Of a stretch of 37,395 bases of DNA, positions 11,525 to 24,127 are shown in pieces (within the stretch, counting starts at the first letter, position 1; every line of letters starts with the position of its first letter). The stretch lies in contig JAAYUB010000069.1 of the NCBI GenBank assembly GCA_012517875.1, forward strand, positions 1 through 37,395, in the 5' to 3' direction. Source of the DNA: Acidobacteriota bacterium (GTDB taxonomy: Bacteria; Acidobacteriota; JAAYUB01). The notes under the pieces are model-generated. The model was not told where the DNA came from, did not search any database, and saw only the letters and a program-made list of their open reading frames with translations. Position numbers and translations under genes: made by a program.

Positions 11525-12802
11525 CTACTTCTGCTGGGTGCCCTTTTCGGCGCGGCCGGCGGCGACCGCCTGGGCGGCCGCGAGCCGGGCGATGGGCACG
11601 CGGTAGGGGGAGCAGCTCACGTAGTCGAGCCCGATCATGTGGCAGAACTCCACCGACGACGGCTCGCCGCCGTGCTCGCCGCAGATGCCCACCTTCAGCT
11701 TCGGGCGCGTGGCGCGCCCCTGCTCCACCGCCATCTTCAGCAACAGGCCCACGCCGTCTCGGTCGATGGCCTGGAACGGGTCCTTCTCCAGAATGCCCTG
11801 CTCCAGGTAGGCCCGGATGAACCGGCCGGCGTCGTCGCGGGAGTAGCCGAAGGTGGTCTGAGTCAGGTCGTTCGTGCCGAAGGAGAAGAACTCGGCCACG
11901 CCGGCGATCGCCCCCGCGGTGAGCGCCGCGCGCGGGATCTCGATCATGGTGCCCACCATGTACGGCACCTCGATCCCCTGCTCCTGGAACACCTGCTTGG
12001 CCTCGTCGACGACGAGGGCGCGCTGGTGTTCGAGTTCGGCCACCTTGCCCACCAGCGGAATCATGATCTCGGGGAATACGTTCACCCCTTCCTTCTTGAC
12101 GATGCAGGCGGCTTCGAGGATCGCCCGGGCCTGCATCCGGGTGATCTCCGGATAGGTGATGCCCAAGCGGCAGCCGCGGTGACCCAACATGGGATTGAGC
12201 TCGTGCAGCTCCTCGACCCGCGCCAGGAGCGTCTCCTTCTCGCGGATCTTGGCGGCGGGCTCGCGCCGCTCCTTCATCAGGGCGATCTCCACCATCAGCT
12301 CCTCGCGCTTGGGCAGGAATTCGGGGAGCGGCGGATCCAGCGTGCGGATGGTCACCGGCAGACCGTCCATCACCCGGAAGATGCCGACGAAGTCCTCGCG
12401 CTGCATGGGCAGCAGCTTCTGGAGCGCCGCCTGGCGCAGCTCCACCGTCTGGGCCAGAATCATCGCCTGCATGTGGGGCAGCCGGTCGGGGGCGAAGAAC
12501 ATGTGCTCGGTCCGGCACAGGCCGATCCCCTCGGCGCCGAACTCGCGGGCCACCTTGGCGTCGCGCGGAATGTCGGCGTTGGTGCGCACCTTCAGGGTGC
12601 GGATGGTGTCGGCCAGGGCCATGAACCGGCCGAAGAAGCCGCTGCGGAGGTCGGGGTTGCTGGTCTTGAGCGCGCCCTGGTAGACCTCGCCCTTGGAGCC
12701 GTCCAGCGAAATGAAGTCTCCCTTTTTCAGCACAGGCCGCCGGGGAACTCCACCGTCTGCGCCTCTTCGTTGATCTTGATGTCGGCGCTGCCGGCCACGC
12801 AC
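11525..12802 (-). CDS. ppdK: Pyruvate phosphate dikinase, C-terminal PEP/pyruvate domain (after frameshift)
   Basis: This frame carries the C-terminal TIM-barrel domain of PPDK, which binds PEP and pyruvate. Homology begins at about 12741 with [17 protein letters not shown]. Codons upstream of that, including the GTG at 12802, encode an Arg-rich stretch unlike PPDK and lack a ribosome-binding site, so this is not an independent gene start. Motifs include [30 protein letters not shown] and [12 protein letters not shown] with the catalytic-type cysteine. It ends in TAG at 11525 followed by a strong terminator. Joined to the upstream fragment by adding one base, the enzyme would be about 894 residues, the normal PPDK length. 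Confidence 0.85.
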
Positions 12803-14208
12803 GGCGTGCCCATGCCGCGGGCCACCACGGCCGCATGGGAGGTCATGCCGCCGCGGGCGGTGAGGATGCCCTGGGAGACTTCCATGCCATGGATGTCGTC
12901 GGGCGTCGTCTCGATGCGCACCAGGATGACCTTCTCCTTCCCCTCGGCCATCGTGACCGCGTCCTCGGACGAGAAGGCGATCCGGCCCACCGCCGCGCCG
13001 GGCGAGGCGGGCAGGCCTTTGGCGATGACCTGAAACGTGTTGCCCGCGTCGAACACCGGGTGCAGCAACTTGTCGAGCTGCTGCGGCTCCACCTTCAGCA
13101 CCGCTTCCTCGGGGCTGATCAGCCCTTCGTCCACCATCTCGCAGGCGATGCGGATGGCGGCGGCGCCGGTGCGCTTGCCGTTGCGGGTCTGCAGCATGAA
13201 CAGGACGCCGTTCTCGATGGTGAACTCGTAGTCCTGCATGTCGCGGTAGTGCTTCTCCAGCCGCTCGGAGATGGCCTTGAGCTGGTCATAGATGACCGGC
13301 ATGGTCTTCTGGAGCTCCTCCAGCTTGAACGGGGTGCGGATACCCGCCACCACGTCCTCGCCCTGGGCGTTGGTCAGAAACTCGCCGTAGAACTCCCGGG
13401 CGCCGGTGGCCGGGTTACGGGTGAAGCCCACACCGGATCCGGAGCTCTCGCCCATGTTGCCGAACACCATCGCCTGCACGTTGACCGCAGTGCCCAGGTT
13501 GTCGGGGATTTCGTTCATCTGGCGGTACTTGATGGCGCGGGGGTTGTTCCACGATTCGAATACCGCGAAGATGGCCAGCCGGAGCTGCTCGCGGGCGTCC
13601 TGCGGGAAGGTTTTCCCGGCACGCTCCAGGACGAACTGCTTGAAGCGGCGGATCATCTCCTGCATGTCATCGGCGGTGAGCTCGGTGTCGAGCTTCACCT
13701 TCCGGGTTTCCTTGATGTGGTCGATGATCCGCTCGAAGTCGTGCTTCGGCACGCCCAGGACGACGTCGGAGAACATCTGGATGAACCGGCGGTAGCAGTC
13801 GTAGGCGAACCGCGGGTTGCCGGTCTTGACACGCAGCGTCTCGACGGTGTCGTCGTTGAGGCCCAGGTTCAGGATGGTGTCCATCATGCCGGGCATGGAA
13901 AACTTGGCGCCCGAGCGTACCGATACAAGCAGCGGTTCCGCGGTGGAGCCCAGCTGCTTGCCCGTGACGGCTTCGAGCCCGGCCAGGGCGGTCATGATCT
14001 GGTCCATGAACTCCTTGGGCAGGCTGCGGTTGTTCTGGTAGTAGATGCCGCACGCCGCCGTGGAGATGGTGAAACCGGGCGGCACGGGAAGCCCGGCGTT
14101 GGTCATCTCGGCCAGGCCGGCGCCCTTGCCGCCCAGGATGTCCTTCATCTTGCCGTGTCCCTCGGCCTTGCCGCGGCCGAACGAGTACACATACTTGTTG
14201 TCTGTCAT
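12727..14208 (-). CDS. ppdK: Pyruvate phosphate dikinase, N-terminal ATP-binding and phosphohistidine domains (frameshifted)
   Basis: PPDK interconverts pyruvate, ATP and phosphate with PEP, AMP and pyrophosphate. This 493-residue fragment holds the ATP-grasp domain (starting [21 protein letters not shown]) and the swivelling phosphohistidine domain with the catalytic histidine 458 in [16 protein letters not shown]. It ends in TGA immediately after TVEFPGGLC. The remainder of the enzyme continues in the -1 frame. Adding one C to the four-C run at 12742-12745 restores a continuous reading ([14 protein letters not shown]). The ATG has an AGGAGG site six bases upstream. The gene follows glyQ-glyS-ino1 on the same strand; glyQS next to ppdK is a known arrangement in other bacteria. 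Confidence 0.88.
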
Positions 14209-18836: not shown

Positions 18837-19724
18837 TCAGTGCCGGGCGTCCAGCATCCGGCGCAGTGCCGCGATGTGAGCGGGTGTCGTGCCGCAGCAG
18901 CCGCCGATGATTCCCACGCCAAGCGTCGGGAACGCCGCCGCCCGCCCGGCGTAGACGTCGGGCGTCTCGGGCCACACCGGCGCGCCGTCGCGCATCCGGG
19001 GCAGCCCGGCGTTGGCCTGCACCAGCAGCGGCCGGTCGGTGGCGCGGCGCAACTCGGCGGCCACGGCGACCATGGGCTCGATGCCCACGCCGCAGTTGGA
19101 GCCGAGGATGTGGGCGCCGGCCGCAGCCAGCTCCCGAACCGCGCGGGGGATGTCCACGCCCATGATGGTGAAAAAACCGTTCGGCGTGACGTCGAAGGTC
19201 ATGGTGGCGGCCACGGGCACCCCGGGCGCCGTCGTCCGGGCGGCCGTCACCGCCAGGACCGCCTCGGCCAGGTCGGTCATGGTCTCCACGACGATCAGGT
19301 CCACGCCGGCCGCAGCCAGCGCGGCGAGTTGCCGGGCAAACGCGTCGGCCACCACCGCGGGGGGCGTGTCGCCGTACGGCTGGAGCATCCGACCGGTGGG
19401 CCCGCAGGAGGCGGCCACGTAGACGCCGCCGCCGGCGCCCCGCCGCGCGGCGGCCACCGCCGCGGCGTTGATGGCCTCGGTCTGTCCCTCCAGGCCGTAG
19501 AGGGCGAGCTTCAGGGGGGAGCCGCCGAAGGTGTTGGTCTGAACGATGTCGGCGCCCGCAGCGGCGTAGTCGGCGGAGACGGACGCCACGACGTCGGGGC
19601 GGTCAAGGTTGAGCGCCTCGGGACACTCGCCGGTCTTGAGGCCCCGGGCCATGAGCTGGGTGCCCATGGCACCGTCGGCCAGCAGTACCTCGCCGCAGCC
19701 CACGCGCTCGAGGATCGGCCGCAT
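18837..19724 (-). CDS. Zinc-dependent homocysteine S-methyltransferase (MetH N-terminal module type)
   Basis: A stand-alone homocysteine-binding TIM barrel, as in the first module of cobalamin methionine synthase or in betaine-homocysteine methyltransferase. It would take a methyl group from the neighbouring methyl-corrinoid protein and transfer it to homocysteine. The 295 residues show LLADGAMGTQL at the start, the QTNTFGG strand (residues about 62-68), and the three zinc-binding cysteines: Cys211 in GSNCG and Cys276-Cys277 in GGCCGT. No pterin- or cobalamin-binding domain is fused. The ATG at 19724 is one base after the stop of the corrinoid protein gene, so the two are surely co-expressed. 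The partner acceptor is inferred from the family; the homocysteine-zinc motif is directly visible. Confidence 0.85.
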   Translation of the reverse strand: MRPILERVGCGEVLLADGAMGTQLMARGLKTGECPEALNLDRPDVVASVSADYAAAGADIVQTNTFGGSPLKLALYGLEGQTEAINAAAVAAARRGAGGGVYVAASCGPTGRMLQPYGDTPPAVVADAFARQLAALAAAGVDLIVVETMTDLAEAVLAVTAARTTAPGVPVAATMTFDVTPNGFFTIMGVDIPRAVRELAAAGAHILGSNCGVGIEPMVAVAAELRRATDRPLLVQANAGLPRMRDGAPVWPETPDVYAGRAAAFPTLGVGIIGGCCGTTPAHIAALRRMLDARH

Positions 19725-19725
19725 T

Positions 19726-20364
19726 TCAGCGCGCCTCCATCAGGGCGGCCACCTTGTCCACGGCGCTGGCGCCGTCGTAGCCGTAATCATCGGCGCCGAT
19801 CTCGCGGGCGAAATCGGCCGACACAGGCGCGCCGCCGACGATGACGCGCACGCGGCCCGCCAGGCCTCGCTCGCGGAGGAGGTCCACCACCTGCCGCATC
19901 ACCGGCATGGTGGTGGTCAGGAGCGCCGACAGGCCGATCACCCGGGCGCCCTCCCGCTCGGCCGCGTCGACGAAGGCCGCCGGGGCGACGTTGTGTCCCA
20001 GGTCCACCACTTCGTAACCGGCGCCCCGCAGCATGATGGCCACGAGGTTTTTGCCGATGTCGTGGAGGTCGCCCTGCACCGTACCCAGCACCACCCGCCC
20101 CCGCGCGGGCACCCCGTCCCGGATCAGGAGCGGCTTGAGTTGCTCCATGCCGGCGTACATGGCCCGGGCCGCCAGCAGCACATCGGGCAGAAAGATGTCG
20201 TGGCGCTTAAAGCGCTCACCGACCACGTGCATGCCGGCGATGAGCCCGTCGTTGAGGATCCGGCCGGCAGGAAGCCCCTGCGCCACCGCCGCGCGGGTGA
20301 GCCGGAGCACCTCCTGGTCCTCGCCGCGCTGCAGCATCTCGGCCAACTGGGCCAGCGTATCCAT
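19726..20364 (-). CDS. Methyltransferase corrinoid protein (MtbC/MetH cobalamin domain type)
   Basis: Carries the methyl group on cobalamin between a methyltransferase and an acceptor enzyme. The 212 residues consist of an N-terminal four-helix cap (about 1-85) and a Rossmann cobalamin-binding domain. The lower-ligand motif D-x-H-x-x-G is present as D99-L-H101-D-I-G104, followed by GLSALLTTTM and VGGAPVSADFAREIGAD, the usual B12-contacting loops. A TTG lies two codons further upstream, but the ATG at 20364 has GGAGG at proper spacing. It starts two bases after the stop of the activation-domain gene and is followed after one base by the homocysteine methyltransferase. Function is secure as a class; its methyl donor is inferred to be the MttB-like protein. 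Confidence 0.9.
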   Translation of the reverse strand: MDTLAQLAEMLQRGEDQEVLRLTRAAVAQGLPAGRILNDGLIAGMHVVGERFKRHDIFLPDVLLAARAMYAGMEQLKPLLIRDGVPARGRVVLGTVQGDLHDIGKNLVAIMLRGAGYEVVDLGHNVAPAAFVDAAEREGARVIGLSALLTTTMPVMRQVVDLLRERGLAGRVRVIVGGAPVSADFAREIGADDYGYDGASAVDKVAALMEAR

Positions 20365-20366
20365 CG

Positions 20367-21095
20367 TCAACCTCCGTGGTGAATATCGGTGGAATCGGTA
20401 TCCGCGAGCCGCGCGGCGCAGCTCCGGTCCCGGCAGTGCCGGCAGAACGGGAAACCGGCCTCGAACGCGTGGATCGCGGGCGGTCCGGCCAGGACCACGC
20501 CGGTCACCGACTTGAGCGGTTCCATGAGACAGCTCGCGTTCAGGCTCACGCCGATTGCCTCCGGCCGCAACGCCGCGAACAACTTCCGCTGCGCGGTGAT
20601 GTGCCAGCCGCAGTAGCCCGGGCTGTAGCGCCGCAACCGCCAGGCGGTCGCCGCCGGGTCGGCGGCGTCCAGCGTCGCCGCCCAGTCGCGCTCCACCTCG
20701 TCGGCCGCCTGCTCGGCTGCGGCGGAGGCCACGGCGTCGAGCACTGCGCCTGTGGCGAAATCCCCCGCCGCGAACAGCTCGGCGACGCGCCGGCCCGGCG
20801 CGGGCCCGACCGTGGCGGCAAAGAGCGCGCGGCGCCGCGCCCGCGGCTGGATCCGCGCCAGCGGCGCGTCCGGCTCGTTGAGCCCCTCGCCGGCAATGAG
20901 ATCGGCCAGCTCGGGTTCCGCCGCGTCCTGCCAGAGTCCGCGCGGTTCGGCCAGTCGGAGGAACTCGGCCCGGGCGGCCTCGTGCAGCGCCACTGTCCGG
21001 GCGCCGGGGTCCCGGCTGTCCAGGCCCAGCAACCGATACACGCCGGCGGGCTCGGGCACCACCGCCTGTACCGGGAATTCCAGTCGCCGTCGCAT
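20367..21095 (-). CDS. MetH-activation-domain-like protein with C-terminal Cys cluster
   Basis: Resembles the SAM-binding reactivation domain of cobalamin methionine synthase, which rescues oxidised cob(II)alamin by reductive methylation. The 242-residue product is a separate protein. Residues about 156-164 (RYSPGYCGW) correspond to the MetH R-x-x-P-G-Y SAM-binding loop, and residues 187-201 (ASCLMEPLKSVTGVV) correspond to the E/S...P..SVSG strand. The C-terminus has a C218-x2-C221-x4-C226 cluster (FCRHCRDRSC), which could bind iron-sulfur or zinc; this is inference. The start at 21095 is chosen because GGGGAG precedes it; a GTG one codon earlier is possible. Position between the MttB-like and corrinoid genes suggests it keeps the corrinoid protein active. 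Confidence 0.78.
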   Translation of the reverse strand: MRRRLEFPVQAVVPEPAGVYRLLGLDSRDPGARTVALHEAARAEFLRLAEPRGLWQDAAEPELADLIAGEGLNEPDAPLARIQPRARRRALFAATVGPAPGRRVAELFAAGDFATGAVLDAVASAAAEQAADEVERDWAATLDAADPAATAWRLRRYSPGYCGWHITAQRKLFAALRPEAIGVSLNASCLMEPLKSVTGVVLAGPPAIHAFEAGFPFCRHCRDRSCAARLADTDSTDIHHGG

Positions 21096-21111
21096 CACCG
21101 GTCTCCCCGCC

Positions 21112-22572
21112 TCAGCCGGTGTGGGCGGGCAGCCGGTCCATGCCGAAGCGCCGGGCTTCGGCGCTCATCCGTTCCGTGAGCGCCGCCTGCGCCTCCGCCG
21201 GCAGCCGCACCGGCTCCCAGGCGGCCAGGTGGCGGGCCACTTCGGCCCGCGCCCGCTCGCCCAGGGGCAGGCTCCCCTCCTCCAGCCAGCGCGAGCGCTG
21301 CGCGCGGTCCACCACCGGCCCCGGGAAGAGGTGTTCGTGGCGCAGGTGGCGGCGGGTGTGGGCGGCGATGAGCAGGTGTCCCTCGCGGAACAGCTCCTGG
21401 AACAACGGCGCGGCGGGGAAATCCTCACGCGGCTCGATGCCGGCGCGCAGGCGCCGGACCATGGCGCAGATCTCGTTATCGACCACCAGCTTCTCCAGGC
21501 TCTGGCAGCTCTCGAAGTCCAGCATGCCGGGACCGGACACGCTGTCGATCCCCGCCAGCGCCGCCAGCGTGGCGCCGATGCCGGTCTCCCAGCCGGCCTG
21601 CGCGTCGAGGAGCTTGGCGTCGCTGAGCCCGATGTAGCCCTGCGTCGGCAGGCCAAGGCGGTGGCCGATCTCGCTGTAAGCGCAGTCCATCATCATGGTC
21701 TCGATGGCACCCATGGGCGTGGTCTCGTAGCGGACGTCGAAGATCGCCGGCGAACCGCCGTAGAGCGCCGGCGCCCCCGGAGCGGCCAGCTGTGAGATCA
21801 CGATCCCGCTCAGGGTCTCGGCGGTATGCTGCACCAGCGAGCCCGTCAGGGTCACCGGCGCCATGAAGCCGGCCAGCGGCATGGAGACGTATTCCACCGG
21901 GATGCCGGCCCGGGCGCAATCCACCACATTTTGCGAAGTGGCGCCGCTCCATTTGAGCGGCGCGGTGGGACAGCAGGAGAACACGGCCAGCGGCCGTTCG
22001 CGCAGGGATTCGGCCGAGCCGCGCGCCGCGACGAGCAGGTCGCGCATCACCGGAAAGCCTTCCGCGCTGAAGGCGCCGGTGATCACAGGCTTCTCGCAGT
22101 ACAGCAGGCTCAGGTAGAGACGGTAGCTGTCGCCGATCTGCGCATGCACGTCGGCGGCGATCATGGCGGTGCTCTGGCTGGCGATGTGGGGCAGCCGGCT
22201 CACCAGCTTGGCGTAGCGGACATAATCGGCGGTGACGGGATGGCGCACAGCGCGCGTCGCCTCATCCAGAATGTAGATGGCGGACGAGCCGGGCGTGAAG
22301 GTCACTTCGCCGGAACCGAACGCGTGCGTCGCTTCACCCGTCGCGTCGTACAACCGGAAGGCCGCCGGCGCCGTCGCCAGAGCCCGGTCCACGAGGTTGC
22401 CCGGTATATGTACCCGACCGGTCGCGGCCTCGACGCGGGCGCCGCCGGCGTGGAGCAAGTCCACGACCGCCGGGTTGTGGATCTCGACGCCGACGGCGGC
22501 CAGGAGGTCGCGCGCCTCGTCGAGGATTCGTTGCAGCAGCTCATCGGACAGGAATCGGACGTGCGGGCGCAT
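21112..22572 (-). CDS. MttB-superfamily methyltransferase, non-pyrrolysine type
   Basis: Member of the trimethylamine methyltransferase (MttB) superfamily. Members demethylate methylated or quaternary amines and pass the methyl to a corrinoid protein. The 486 residues have the normal family length and fold pattern, with GVEIHNP near residue 28 and the conserved GLPTQGYIGLSDAK ... ETGIGATLAALAG region near residues 330-370. There is no in-frame TAG, so it is not a pyrrolysine enzyme like the archaeal MttB. Known non-pyl relatives act on glycine betaine, carnitine or proline betaine; this substrate is unknown. The ATG at 22572 follows GGAAGGAGGACC, and the frame's earlier start is rejected. The leader has a TACACT -10-like site at 22652-22647 but no clear -35. 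First gene of the operon. Confidence 0.85.
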   Translation of the reverse strand: MRPHVRFLSDELLQRILDEARDLLAAVGVEIHNPAVVDLLHAGGARVEAATGRVHIPGNLVDRALATAPAAFRLYDATGEATHAFGSGEVTFTPGSSAIYILDEATRAVRHPVTADYVRYAKLVSRLPHIASQSTAMIAADVHAQIGDSYRLYLSLLYCEKPVITGAFSAEGFPVMRDLLVAARGSAESLRERPLAVFSCCPTAPLKWSGATSQNVVDCARAGIPVEYVSMPLAGFMAPVTLTGSLVQHTAETLSGIVISQLAAPGAPALYGGSPAIFDVRYETTPMGAIETMMMDCAYSEIGHRLGLPTQGYIGLSDAKLLDAQAGWETGIGATLAALAGIDSVSGPGMLDFESCQSLEKLVVDNEICAMVRRLRAGIEPREDFPAAPLFQELFREGHLLIAAHTRRHLRHEHLFPGPVVDRAQRSRWLEEGSLPLGERARAEVARHLAAWEPVRLPAEAQAALTERMSAEARRFGMDRLPAHTG

Positions 22573-22718
22573 GGTCCTCCTTCCGGCCCGGACCGCGCGG
22601 GAGACGGCGTCGCGCGGGGGCATGCGCGGGATTGAAACGCAGCGCTAGTGTACACCAGGCATCCCGGCGGGGCGAGCGCTTTTTATCGGCCGGCGTTCGG
22701 GTGGCGGGTCGCCCTGAC

Positions 22719-22903: not shown

Positions 22904-24127
22904 TCAGGACACCAGGCCCACCTTGCGGACGCCCCGCTCGAGCTGCGCCACGCGCTCCTCCAGCGTCCCGGTGATGCCGACGGCGATCCGCAGCAGCCCG
23001 GGCGAAAGGCCCATGCGTGCCTGGTCCTCCGGCGAGATCTCGGATGACGTCGACGAGCCGGAGCACGACATCAGGGTGTCGAAGTAGCCCAGCGACACGG
23101 CGATCAGCCCGAACCGCTCGTCGTTCTGCAGCACGTTCAGCAGGTCGTCGGCCCGCTCGCGGGTGCCGCAGTCCACGGTGAGCATGCCGCCGAAACCGTA
23201 GCCCTCGTTCATCATCCGGGCGAAGAGGCCGTGCTGGCCATGCTGCGGCAGCCCCGGGTAGCTGACCGGGGCGCCGATCGCCTGCAGCCGGTCGGCGGCC
23301 GCCTGGGCGCGCCGGCTGTGCTCGCGCATCCGGATGGCCAGGTGCGGCAGGCGCTGCGCCACGTCGAACGCCACCCGCGCGTCCATGACCGGCCCAAGCA
23401 GCATGATCCGGCCGGTGTGCAGGTCCATGAGCTGGAAGACGAAGTCGCGCGAGGCGCAGACCACGCCGCCGATCACATCGCTGGCGCCGTTGACGAATTT
23501 GGTCAGGGAGTGCACCACCACATGGGCGCCAAGCTGGGCCGGCGACATGATCATGGGCGTGAACGTGTTGTCCACCACCAGGGTGGCGCCTCGCTCGCGG
23601 GCCAGCCGGCCCAGAGCCGGGATGTCGGCCACCTTGAGGGTGGGATTGCCCAGCACCTCGGTGTAGAACACCTTGGTTCGCGGCGTGACGGCGCGGGCGA
23701 ACGCCGCGGTGTCGGTGGGATCCGCAAACGTGGTGGTGATGCCCATTTGGGGGAGCAGCTCGCCCAGCAGGGCAAAGGTGCCGCCGTACACCGTGTTGCT
23801 GGCCACGATGTGATCGCCCGCCCGACAGAGCTGGAGCAGTGTGCAGGAGATCGCGGCCATGCCGCTGGCGGTGCAGATGGCCGCCTCGGTGCCCTCCAGC
23901 GCCGCCAGGTAGCGGGCCAGCACGTCGACGGTGGGATTGAAGTGCCGGCTGTAGAGGTAGCAGCCGCCCGTCTCCGGCCCGCGCACGCCGCCGAAGATCT
24001 CGGGCATGGTCCGGGAATCGAGGACGGTGAACGTGGATGACCGCTCGATGGACGGGCAGACGCCCCCGTGCTCGCCAAATTCGCGCCGGGTCAGGGTCAA
24101 CGCCTGCTCGGGATTGTGTCGGTTCAT
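22904..24127 (-). CDS. Cys/Met metabolism PLP-dependent enzyme (methionine gamma-lyase / cystathionine gamma-synthase-like)
   Basis: PLP enzyme of the gamma-family of the Cys/Met metabolism group; such enzymes form or break C-S bonds at the gamma-carbon. The 407 residues hold Y59-S-R61...NPT (the YSR...NPT motif binding the PLP phosphate of the neighbouring subunit), D186 in VVDNTFTP, and the Schiff-base lysine K210 in HSLTKF. The position equivalent to the methionine gamma-lyase active-site cysteine reads YGGTF, so the reaction cannot be fixed: gamma-lyase, O-acyl-homoserine sulfhydrylase and cystathionine gamma-synthase remain possible. The ATG at 24127 has GGAGGGT upstream and a good promoter. 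It lies upstream of the methionine-forming operon but is separated from it by terminators. Confidence 0.85.
   Translation of the reverse strand: MNRHNPEQALTLTRREFGEHGGVCPSIERSSTFTVLDSRTMPEIFGGVRGPETGGCYLYSRHFNPTVDVLARYLAALEGTEAAICTASGMAAISCTLLQLCRAGDHIVASNTVYGGTFALLGELLPQMGITTTFADPTDTAAFARAVTPRTKVFYTEVLGNPTLKVADIPALGRLARERGATLVVDNTFTPMIMSPAQLGAHVVVHSLTKFVNGASDVIGGVVCASRDFVFQLMDLHTGRIMLLGPVMDARVAFDVAQRLPHLAIRMREHSRRAQAAADRLQAIGAPVSYPGLPQHGQHGLFARMMNEGYGFGGMLTVDCGTRERADDLLNVLQNDERFGLIAVSLGYFDTLMSCSGSSTSSEISPEDQARMGLSPGLLRIAVGITGTLEERVAQLERGVRKVGLVS

Follow-up and report, generated by a model that had tools for sequence, protein, structure and literature searches.

How does a corrinoid methyltransferase of the MttB family stay active in a bacterium without the usual reactivating enzyme? 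Corrinoid methyltransferases are now and then oxidatively inactivated and need a reactivator. Two kinds are well established, one working with SAM plus flavodoxin, as in MetH, the other being the ATP-driven proteins RACo and RamA. The stretch of acidobacterial DNA analysed here (37,395 nucleotides, hereafter the window) carries an MttB-family gene followed by a small gene (Table 1) that an earlier reading of the sequence alone had taken for a stand-alone MetH activation domain and for a possible alternative reactivation route. That reading had also noticed that no RACo or RamA lies nearby. This was borne out and extends to the whole assembly (approximately 96% complete), in which no match to PF14574 was found, while the control genome of M. 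acetivorans was matched.

Table 1. Features of the operon and of the putative activator, in window positions.
Feature	Positions	Strand	Basis
Cys/Met PLP enzyme	22904-24127	-	precedes the operon
MttB-family methyltransferase, presumed methyl donor side	21112..22623	-	PF06253, E 1.5e-73
Free-standing MetH-type activation protein (putative activator)	20367..21095	-	PF02965, AlphaFold model, TM0269 match
Loop R157-YSPGYCGW-165, counterpart of MetH RxxxGY	20604..20630	-	alignment, conservation, codons read
C163, invariant, inside the RYSPGYCGW loop	20610-20612	-	codons read
MEPLKSVTG, M192-G200	20499..20525	-	M192, P194, K196 and G200 invariant in the 81-row alignment (best 80 of 551)
C219-x2-C222-x4-C227-x2-R230	20409..20444	-	81/81, window's own and best 80 of 551; codons read
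Corrinoid protein, cap and B12-binding domain, DLHDIG motif	19726..20364	-	PF02607, PF02310
Homocysteine S-methyltransferase, presumed methyl acceptor side	18837..19724	-	PF02574, E 4.8e-64

The activator and its operon

The open reading frame of the activator spans 20367-21098 on the reverse strand, with GTG at 21098 as mechanical start. The likely start is the ATG at 21095, the position where homologues begin, which gives 242 amino acids. PF02965 (Met_synt_B12) is the only Pfam domain found, with 42 bits for a gathering cut-off of 25. The same domain was matched, at E-values up to 5, in all 81 sequences of a set (A2) composed of the window's own protein and the best 80 of 551 confirmed relatives, gathered by a separate scan of named genomes. 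The relatives at 90% and 89% among these 80 belong to Acidobacteria/Acidobacteriota MAGs. A profile of 31 relatives retrieved TM0269 (1j6r, E 3e-9), followed by MetH activation domains. The AlphaFold model has a pLDDT of 93.5 and a pTM of 0.89. Its top match was free-standing TM0269 (Z 20.4 over 190 residues); MetH domains, including the SAM-bound 6bm5 (Z 16.8), also matched, and the next rows, from other families, fell below Z 7. The protein thus almost certainly belongs to the MetH activation-domain family and fold, and the description as a separate, stand-alone domain holds. The TM0269 alignment covers model residues 1-205; the cysteine tail lies beyond it and was modelled less well, with block means of 84, 79 and 72.

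The genes of the operon are tightly packed. The activator starts 16 bases past the MttB stop, the corrinoid ATG lies 2 bases past the activator stop, and the corrinoid and homocysteine genes are 1 base apart. For the corrinoid gene the mechanical start is a TTG at 20370, and the ATG start is the one we infer. The corrinoid protein scored under the NCBIfam MtgC cut-offs (207 bits vs 370, 173 vs 310), yet the general corrinoid domains are present. In the homocysteine methyltransferase, we take the zinc cysteines to be those of SNCG and GGCCG. The MttB-family enzyme is of the non-pyrrolysine type, as the alignment places a Leu at the Pyl334 position, and it remained below the cut-off of the trimeth_pyl model (344 vs 525). 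The solved structures nearest to it include a glycine betaine methyltransferase (9yce) and 2qne, identified as MtgB in a passage of PMC9842639. Our best guess for its substrate is glycine betaine. Flanking genes were also searched for a hint at the substrate; beyond the operon's own genes, none recurs in more than 10 of the 80 loci (best 80 of 551), the other large flanking clusters having been taken, by their coordinates, as other frames of operon genes.

The Cys/Met PLP enzyme upstream gave methionine gamma-lyase as best NCBIfam match (275 bits, below the cut-off of 549.7). In the loci compared, near-identical copies occur in the same genus only, and a 32% relative precedes the operon at locus L129.

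Gene order was compared around the best 80 of the 551 relatives. MttB, activator, corrinoid and homocysteine genes follow each other in this order on one strand at 61 of the 80 loci; 12 have MttB and activator with or without the corrinoid gene, and 7 have no recognised MttB. Several of these 19 incomplete operons stop at contig ends. The relatives come from Acidobacteriota, Aminicenantes, WOR-3, Neomarinimicrobiota, Zixiibacteriota, Cloacimonadota, Planctomycetota and others.

The locus had been described as an MttB system. An MttB gene does adjoin the activator, but the PF02574 homocysteine methyltransferase makes the operon look like a folate-free methionine synthase and not like a catabolic MttB system. 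The four genes probably encode a methionine synthesis in which a methylated amine, and not folate, supplies the methyl group. Among 22 operon genomes (21 with the core activator beside MttB, defined below, and G089), the MetE-type domain PF01717 occurs in 1 and MetF in 21. Genome G160, listed as 100% complete with 3% contamination, gave no match to a second PF02965, to PF01717, to MetF or to RACo, and the metH model found there the homocysteine and corrinoid genes of the operon plus one weak B12-domain match. In G160, the operon is the only methionine synthase recognised by these searches.

The window's genome also has MetH and MetF, on contig C33, so that the operon would be a second methionine route here and the two routes would coexist. 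The activator might then serve this canonical MetH and not the operon. We rejected this explanation, which we consider barely credible, because the MetH on C33 carries its own activation domain; moreover, G160 has the operon without a MetH match. In the region C33:3799-8870 (reverse strand) of this genome, G000, the MetH-type reading frame adjoins one of 643 amino acids that matches both the homocysteine and the MTHFR models.

A comparable arrangement is found in Phaeobacter and Ruegeria, where separate PF06253, corrinoid and PF02574 proteins link betaine and methionine, as here (split synthase and MtgBCDE; passages of PMC5764234 and PMC12478193). According to PMC12478193, the roseobacter split methionine synthase shares its corrinoid protein with betaine demethylation and the system has a pterin-binding module, RamA and DUF1638, whereas the operon described here has no pterin module and a PF02965 activator. 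DUF1638 was found in 1 of the 22 operon genomes. A passage of PMC5764234 states that P. inhibens has no PF02965 and that this domain can occur as a separate protein. Core methionine synthases using corrinoid proteins are described for the PF01717 family in a passage of PMC7857596.

Four invariant cysteines and the SAM pocket

The sequence-only reading had noticed three cysteines, C-x2-C-x4-C, at the end of the protein. The motif is present and invariant, but it ends 16 residues before the C-terminus, and a fourth invariant cysteine, C163, had not been counted. C163, C219, C222, C227 and R230 are invariant in the 31 sequences of a first alignment (A1), composed of the window's own sequence and 30 from a whole-protein search; this alignment omits L063 and L067, both truncated at contig ends, as well as L073 and the divergent L065, L066 and L068-L072. 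The same five residues are kept in 81/81 sequences of A2 (best 80 of 551), with a mean column identity of 42%, and every other cysteine column reaches at most 24/81. Because C163 was part of one scan pattern of A2, the figure of 81/81 is biased for this residue only, and its conservation is unbiased only in A1 (31/31), which was gathered without such a pattern. The C163-C219 spacing is 56 in 80 of these 81 rows. As a chance control, the pattern C..C....C..R was found in 1 of the window's 226 stop-to-stop frames of at least 80 amino acids.

An activator tree of 70 rows, including the genome's own MetH and leaving out part of the divergent hits, was computed from an alignment stripped of the tail and of the C163 column. 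It unites the core set in a single group of 31 rows (SH-aLRT 100). Outside this group, C163 is seen only in G092. The motif pattern used with the tree missed C163 in G069, whose loop reads YSPSYCGW. Among the matches listed, further stand-alone PF02965 subfamilies share the C-x2-C-x4-C triad, and we therefore rejected the triad alone as the mark of a new family. The four-cysteine set is, in the sequences compared, special to the core clade and its nearest neighbour G092. In the divergent L066, L069, L071 and L072, position 163 is a Gly and a Cys stands just before the Arg (CRISPGYGxW), possibly the fourth ligand moved to the other end of the loop. This survey of divergent activators comprises the matches listed, so weak activators may be missing; in L155 and L167, the loop was misplaced by the automatic matching.

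Fe-S Pfam models with E-values up to 5 gave no match in the 81 activators (best 80 of 551), and the sole hint at a metal site was zf-FLZ, matched in 2 of the 81 with E-values no better than 0.016. No known Fe-S or zinc Pfam domain was thus convincing across this set. A conserved cysteine ligand set is nevertheless present, which suits Fe-S and zinc equally. A metal at the four cysteines is highly probable, and, if there is such a site, a [4Fe-4S] cluster would be a fairly probable occupant, rather than zinc.

These cysteines would lie close to the putative SAM pocket. In E. coli MetH, the amino-acid moiety of SAM is bound by D946 and E1101 and the ribose by R1134, and Y1139 and Y1189 stack on the adenine (PMC1282579). 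In the profile alignment, RYSPGYCGW and MEPLKSVTG align with the RxxxGY loop of E. coli MetH and with the strand that follows it. The printed chain numbers equate R1134 with R157 and Y1139 with Y162, and counting along the same alignment equates E1097 with E129 and E1101 with D133. The match of Y1189 with H210 also follows by counting, but past the end of the printed alignment, and is the least sure of these equivalences.

Across A2 (window's own and best 80 of 551), position 162 is Tyr in 77/81 sequences, position 210 His in 74/81 and position 129 Asp or Glu in 78/81, and position 133 is variable. R157 is Arg in only 32/81 and lost in 49/81. RxxxGY is complete in the window's protein and its Arg mostly absent across the clade: both segments named as the SAM-binding core do align with the MetH loop and its following strand, but the Arg of the first is not a family feature. 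In stand-alone proteins outside the core clade, the Arg is mostly kept and position 163 is Gly or another residue (among the matches listed). The putative SAM pocket is partly kept, and the activator likely binds SAM; that it depends on SAM for its function we consider highly probable. Y162 is the neighbour of C163, and nine residues separate H210 from C219 in numbering, which should place the four cysteines around this pocket.

The protein might instead have abandoned SAM and become a pure Fe-S reductase giving Co(I) directly, with C163 in the place of the SAM loop. The loss of R157 in most of the C163 clade (best 80 of 551) would agree with this, as would the Arg kept by most stand-alone proteins outside it, which have no C163 (among the matches listed). 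However, Y162, H210 and the acid at position 129 are largely kept (best 80 of 551), and making Co(I) is uphill unless ATP or trapping by SAM assists. We consider this reading improbable.

Distribution of RACo and RamA

In 396 genomes of the phylum, MttB was found in 85 and the RACo C-terminal domain in 69. The RACo/RamA domain occurs in only 1 of the 21 genomes with a core activator beside MttB, compared to 50 of the 64 other MttB genomes (Fisher p 1.7e-9). By family majority, RACo is found in 1/11 vs 16/25 (p 0.0034). This near-absence of RACo from genomes with the operon backs an alternative reactivation route. The exception is G379, where the whole operon and RACo occur together. The 21 genomes omit G089 and G069, where the activator lies close to a contig end and no adjacent MttB was seen, G029 and G361, where MttB does not adjoin the activator, and eight f28 genomes in which the activator lies beside a homocysteine gene without adjoining MttB. 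In these eight, core activator and RACo occur together in 8/8.

Fourteen MttB genomes have neither the core-activator pair nor RACo. Among them, G089 has a core activator at a contig end, and in G005, G035, G060, G119, G229, G317 and G348 MttB is adjoined by a divergent activator. In G026 and G252, divergent triad-bearing activators occur alongside RACo and MttB.

The same distribution bears on the proposal that the protein does not reactivate but helps to assemble the MttB-corrinoid complex or to load its cofactor. A gene placed between those for MttB and the corrinoid protein would suit any partner, but the nearest structural relative, TM0269, is a known activator, and RACo, the usual activator, is missing where this protein occurs. 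We consider such a role very unlikely.

The cysteine triad was compared with RACo among the matches listed. All MttB-cluster activators without the triad come with RACo (13/13), compared to 6/33 with the triad (Fisher p 2.7e-7); G277 was counted as triad-bearing although its spacing is C-x2-C-x5-C. Collapsed to families, the association gives p 0.014. On the tree of 70 rows the triad changes five times, with only 2 supported independent pairs as tests, so that the trade-off between cysteines and RACo is suggestive only. With these figures, a strict replacement of RACo by the cysteines was rejected.

The result also touches the nature of the metal. A structural zinc at the four cysteines might pin the C-terminal tail over the SAM loop, with reactivation following ordinary MetH chemistry, in which SAM acts together with a separate flavodoxin or ferredoxin. 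The two CxxC-like pairs suit zinc, as do the weak zf-FLZ matches (2/81, best 80 of 551), and MetH functions without any cluster. The presence of RACo with every triad-less MttB-cluster activator among the matches listed is a better fit to a redox role, with thin support from the tree. Thus we regard zinc as possible but rather unlikely, and retain the redox reading.

In the f28 loci (L050-L053, L057, L058, L063, L067), the core activator is paired with a homocysteine gene only, the loop, where read, is YCPGHCGW or CPGHCGW instead of YSPGYCGW, and RACo lies elsewhere in the genome, with no adjoining MttB. Another stand-alone PF02965 subfamily (L178-L183, L073) has a tail reading CxLCxRxxCPxR or near it, no MttB nearby and RACo in its genomes.

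Proposed mechanism and relation to known activators

Altogether, these data make it very probable that the protein reactivates the corrinoid protein of its operon. The MttB-like enzyme would demethylate a quaternary amine (glycine betaine being a guess), the corrinoid protein would carry the methyl group, and the PF02574 enzyme would pass it to homocysteine. Whenever the corrinoid ends up as Co(II), the activator would dock on the corrinoid protein and, like the MetH activation domain, use an electron and SAM to restore methyl-Co(III). C163 of the SAM loop would probably form a single metal site with C219, C222 and C227 next to the SAM/corrin face. Its most likely occupant is a [4Fe-4S] cluster relaying the electron, so that ATP-driven RACo/RamA would not be needed. 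To the complete statement, a dedicated, SAM-dependent corrinoid reactivator of a folate-independent methionine synthase with a [4Fe-4S] relay, we give an even chance, which allows for the links between steps.

The complete statement is drawn from the PF02965 family and fold, four cysteines at fixed spacing, the gene order (61/80, best 80 of 551), the distribution of RACo (1/21 vs 50/64) and DUF1638 (1/22), G160 without another recognised synthase, the largely kept Y162, H210 and position 129, and the TM0269 precedent. Against it we counted R157 in 32/81 (best 80 of 551), the lack of an Fe-S Pfam match, the activator together with RACo in the f28 genomes, G379, G026 and G252, and the 2 independent pairs.

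A separate PF02965 protein is already known, from TM0269 and from the statement in PMC5764234. The Thermotoga maritima protein and the activator share the fold and a separate gene adjoining a synthase that lacks the domain. They differ in that TM0269 aligns only with activator residues 1-205, keeps the Arg of RxSPGY, has Gly in place of C163 and has a folate MetH as partner, whereas the activator has an MttB/corrinoid pair. TM0269 works for a synthase without activation domain; reportedly, Huang found in 2007 that it is required to reactivate TM0268.

With the activation domains of E. coli, human and Thermus MetH (6bm5, 1msk, 2o2k, 8ssc), the activator has the fold and the GY of RxxxGY in common, but it is a separate gene with invariant K196 and four cysteines, and its Arg is not conserved (best 80 of 551). 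RACo, RamA and AE (PF14574) share with the activator a presumed task, to reactivate the Co(II) form of corrinoid proteins that serve methyltransferases, but belong to an unrelated family, absent from the window's genome and from 20/21 operon genomes. The C-x2-C-x4-C spacing is also that of CoFeSP (CfsA). The [4Fe-4S] cluster of CoFeSP is said, from work of Menon and Ragsdale in 1998, to serve corrinoid reduction. We found no sequence relation between CoFeSP and the activator, and the 81 activators (best 80 of 551) gave no Fe-S Pfam match.

In the literature searched, which covered few subscription papers, we found neither an MttB operon with its own PF02965 protein nor a report of a cysteine site in this PF02965 family. 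Tentatively, the protein could represent a third class of corrinoid activase, with the MetH fold, a built-in [4Fe-4S] cluster and a fourth ligand in the former SAM loop, replacing RACo/RamA, running an amine-fed, folate-free synthase, and serving in some bacteria the sole methionine synthase; we hold this broad reading to be possible but less likely than not. A protein working as proposed would add a third, compact reactivation solution, found across many uncultured phyla, and would account for MttB systems in genomes without RACo. It would also mark a folate-independent methionine synthase of four genes, which annotation pipelines are unlikely to pick up and which is relevant when the methionine and B12 requirements of uncultured bacteria are to be predicted.

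Elsewhere in the window, the region 11525-14208 (reverse strand) presumably encodes pyruvate phosphate dikinase, which its reading frames resemble. It is split into overlapping frames, 12727-14208 and 11525-12802, that differ in phase, a frameshift that is either real or due to the assembly.
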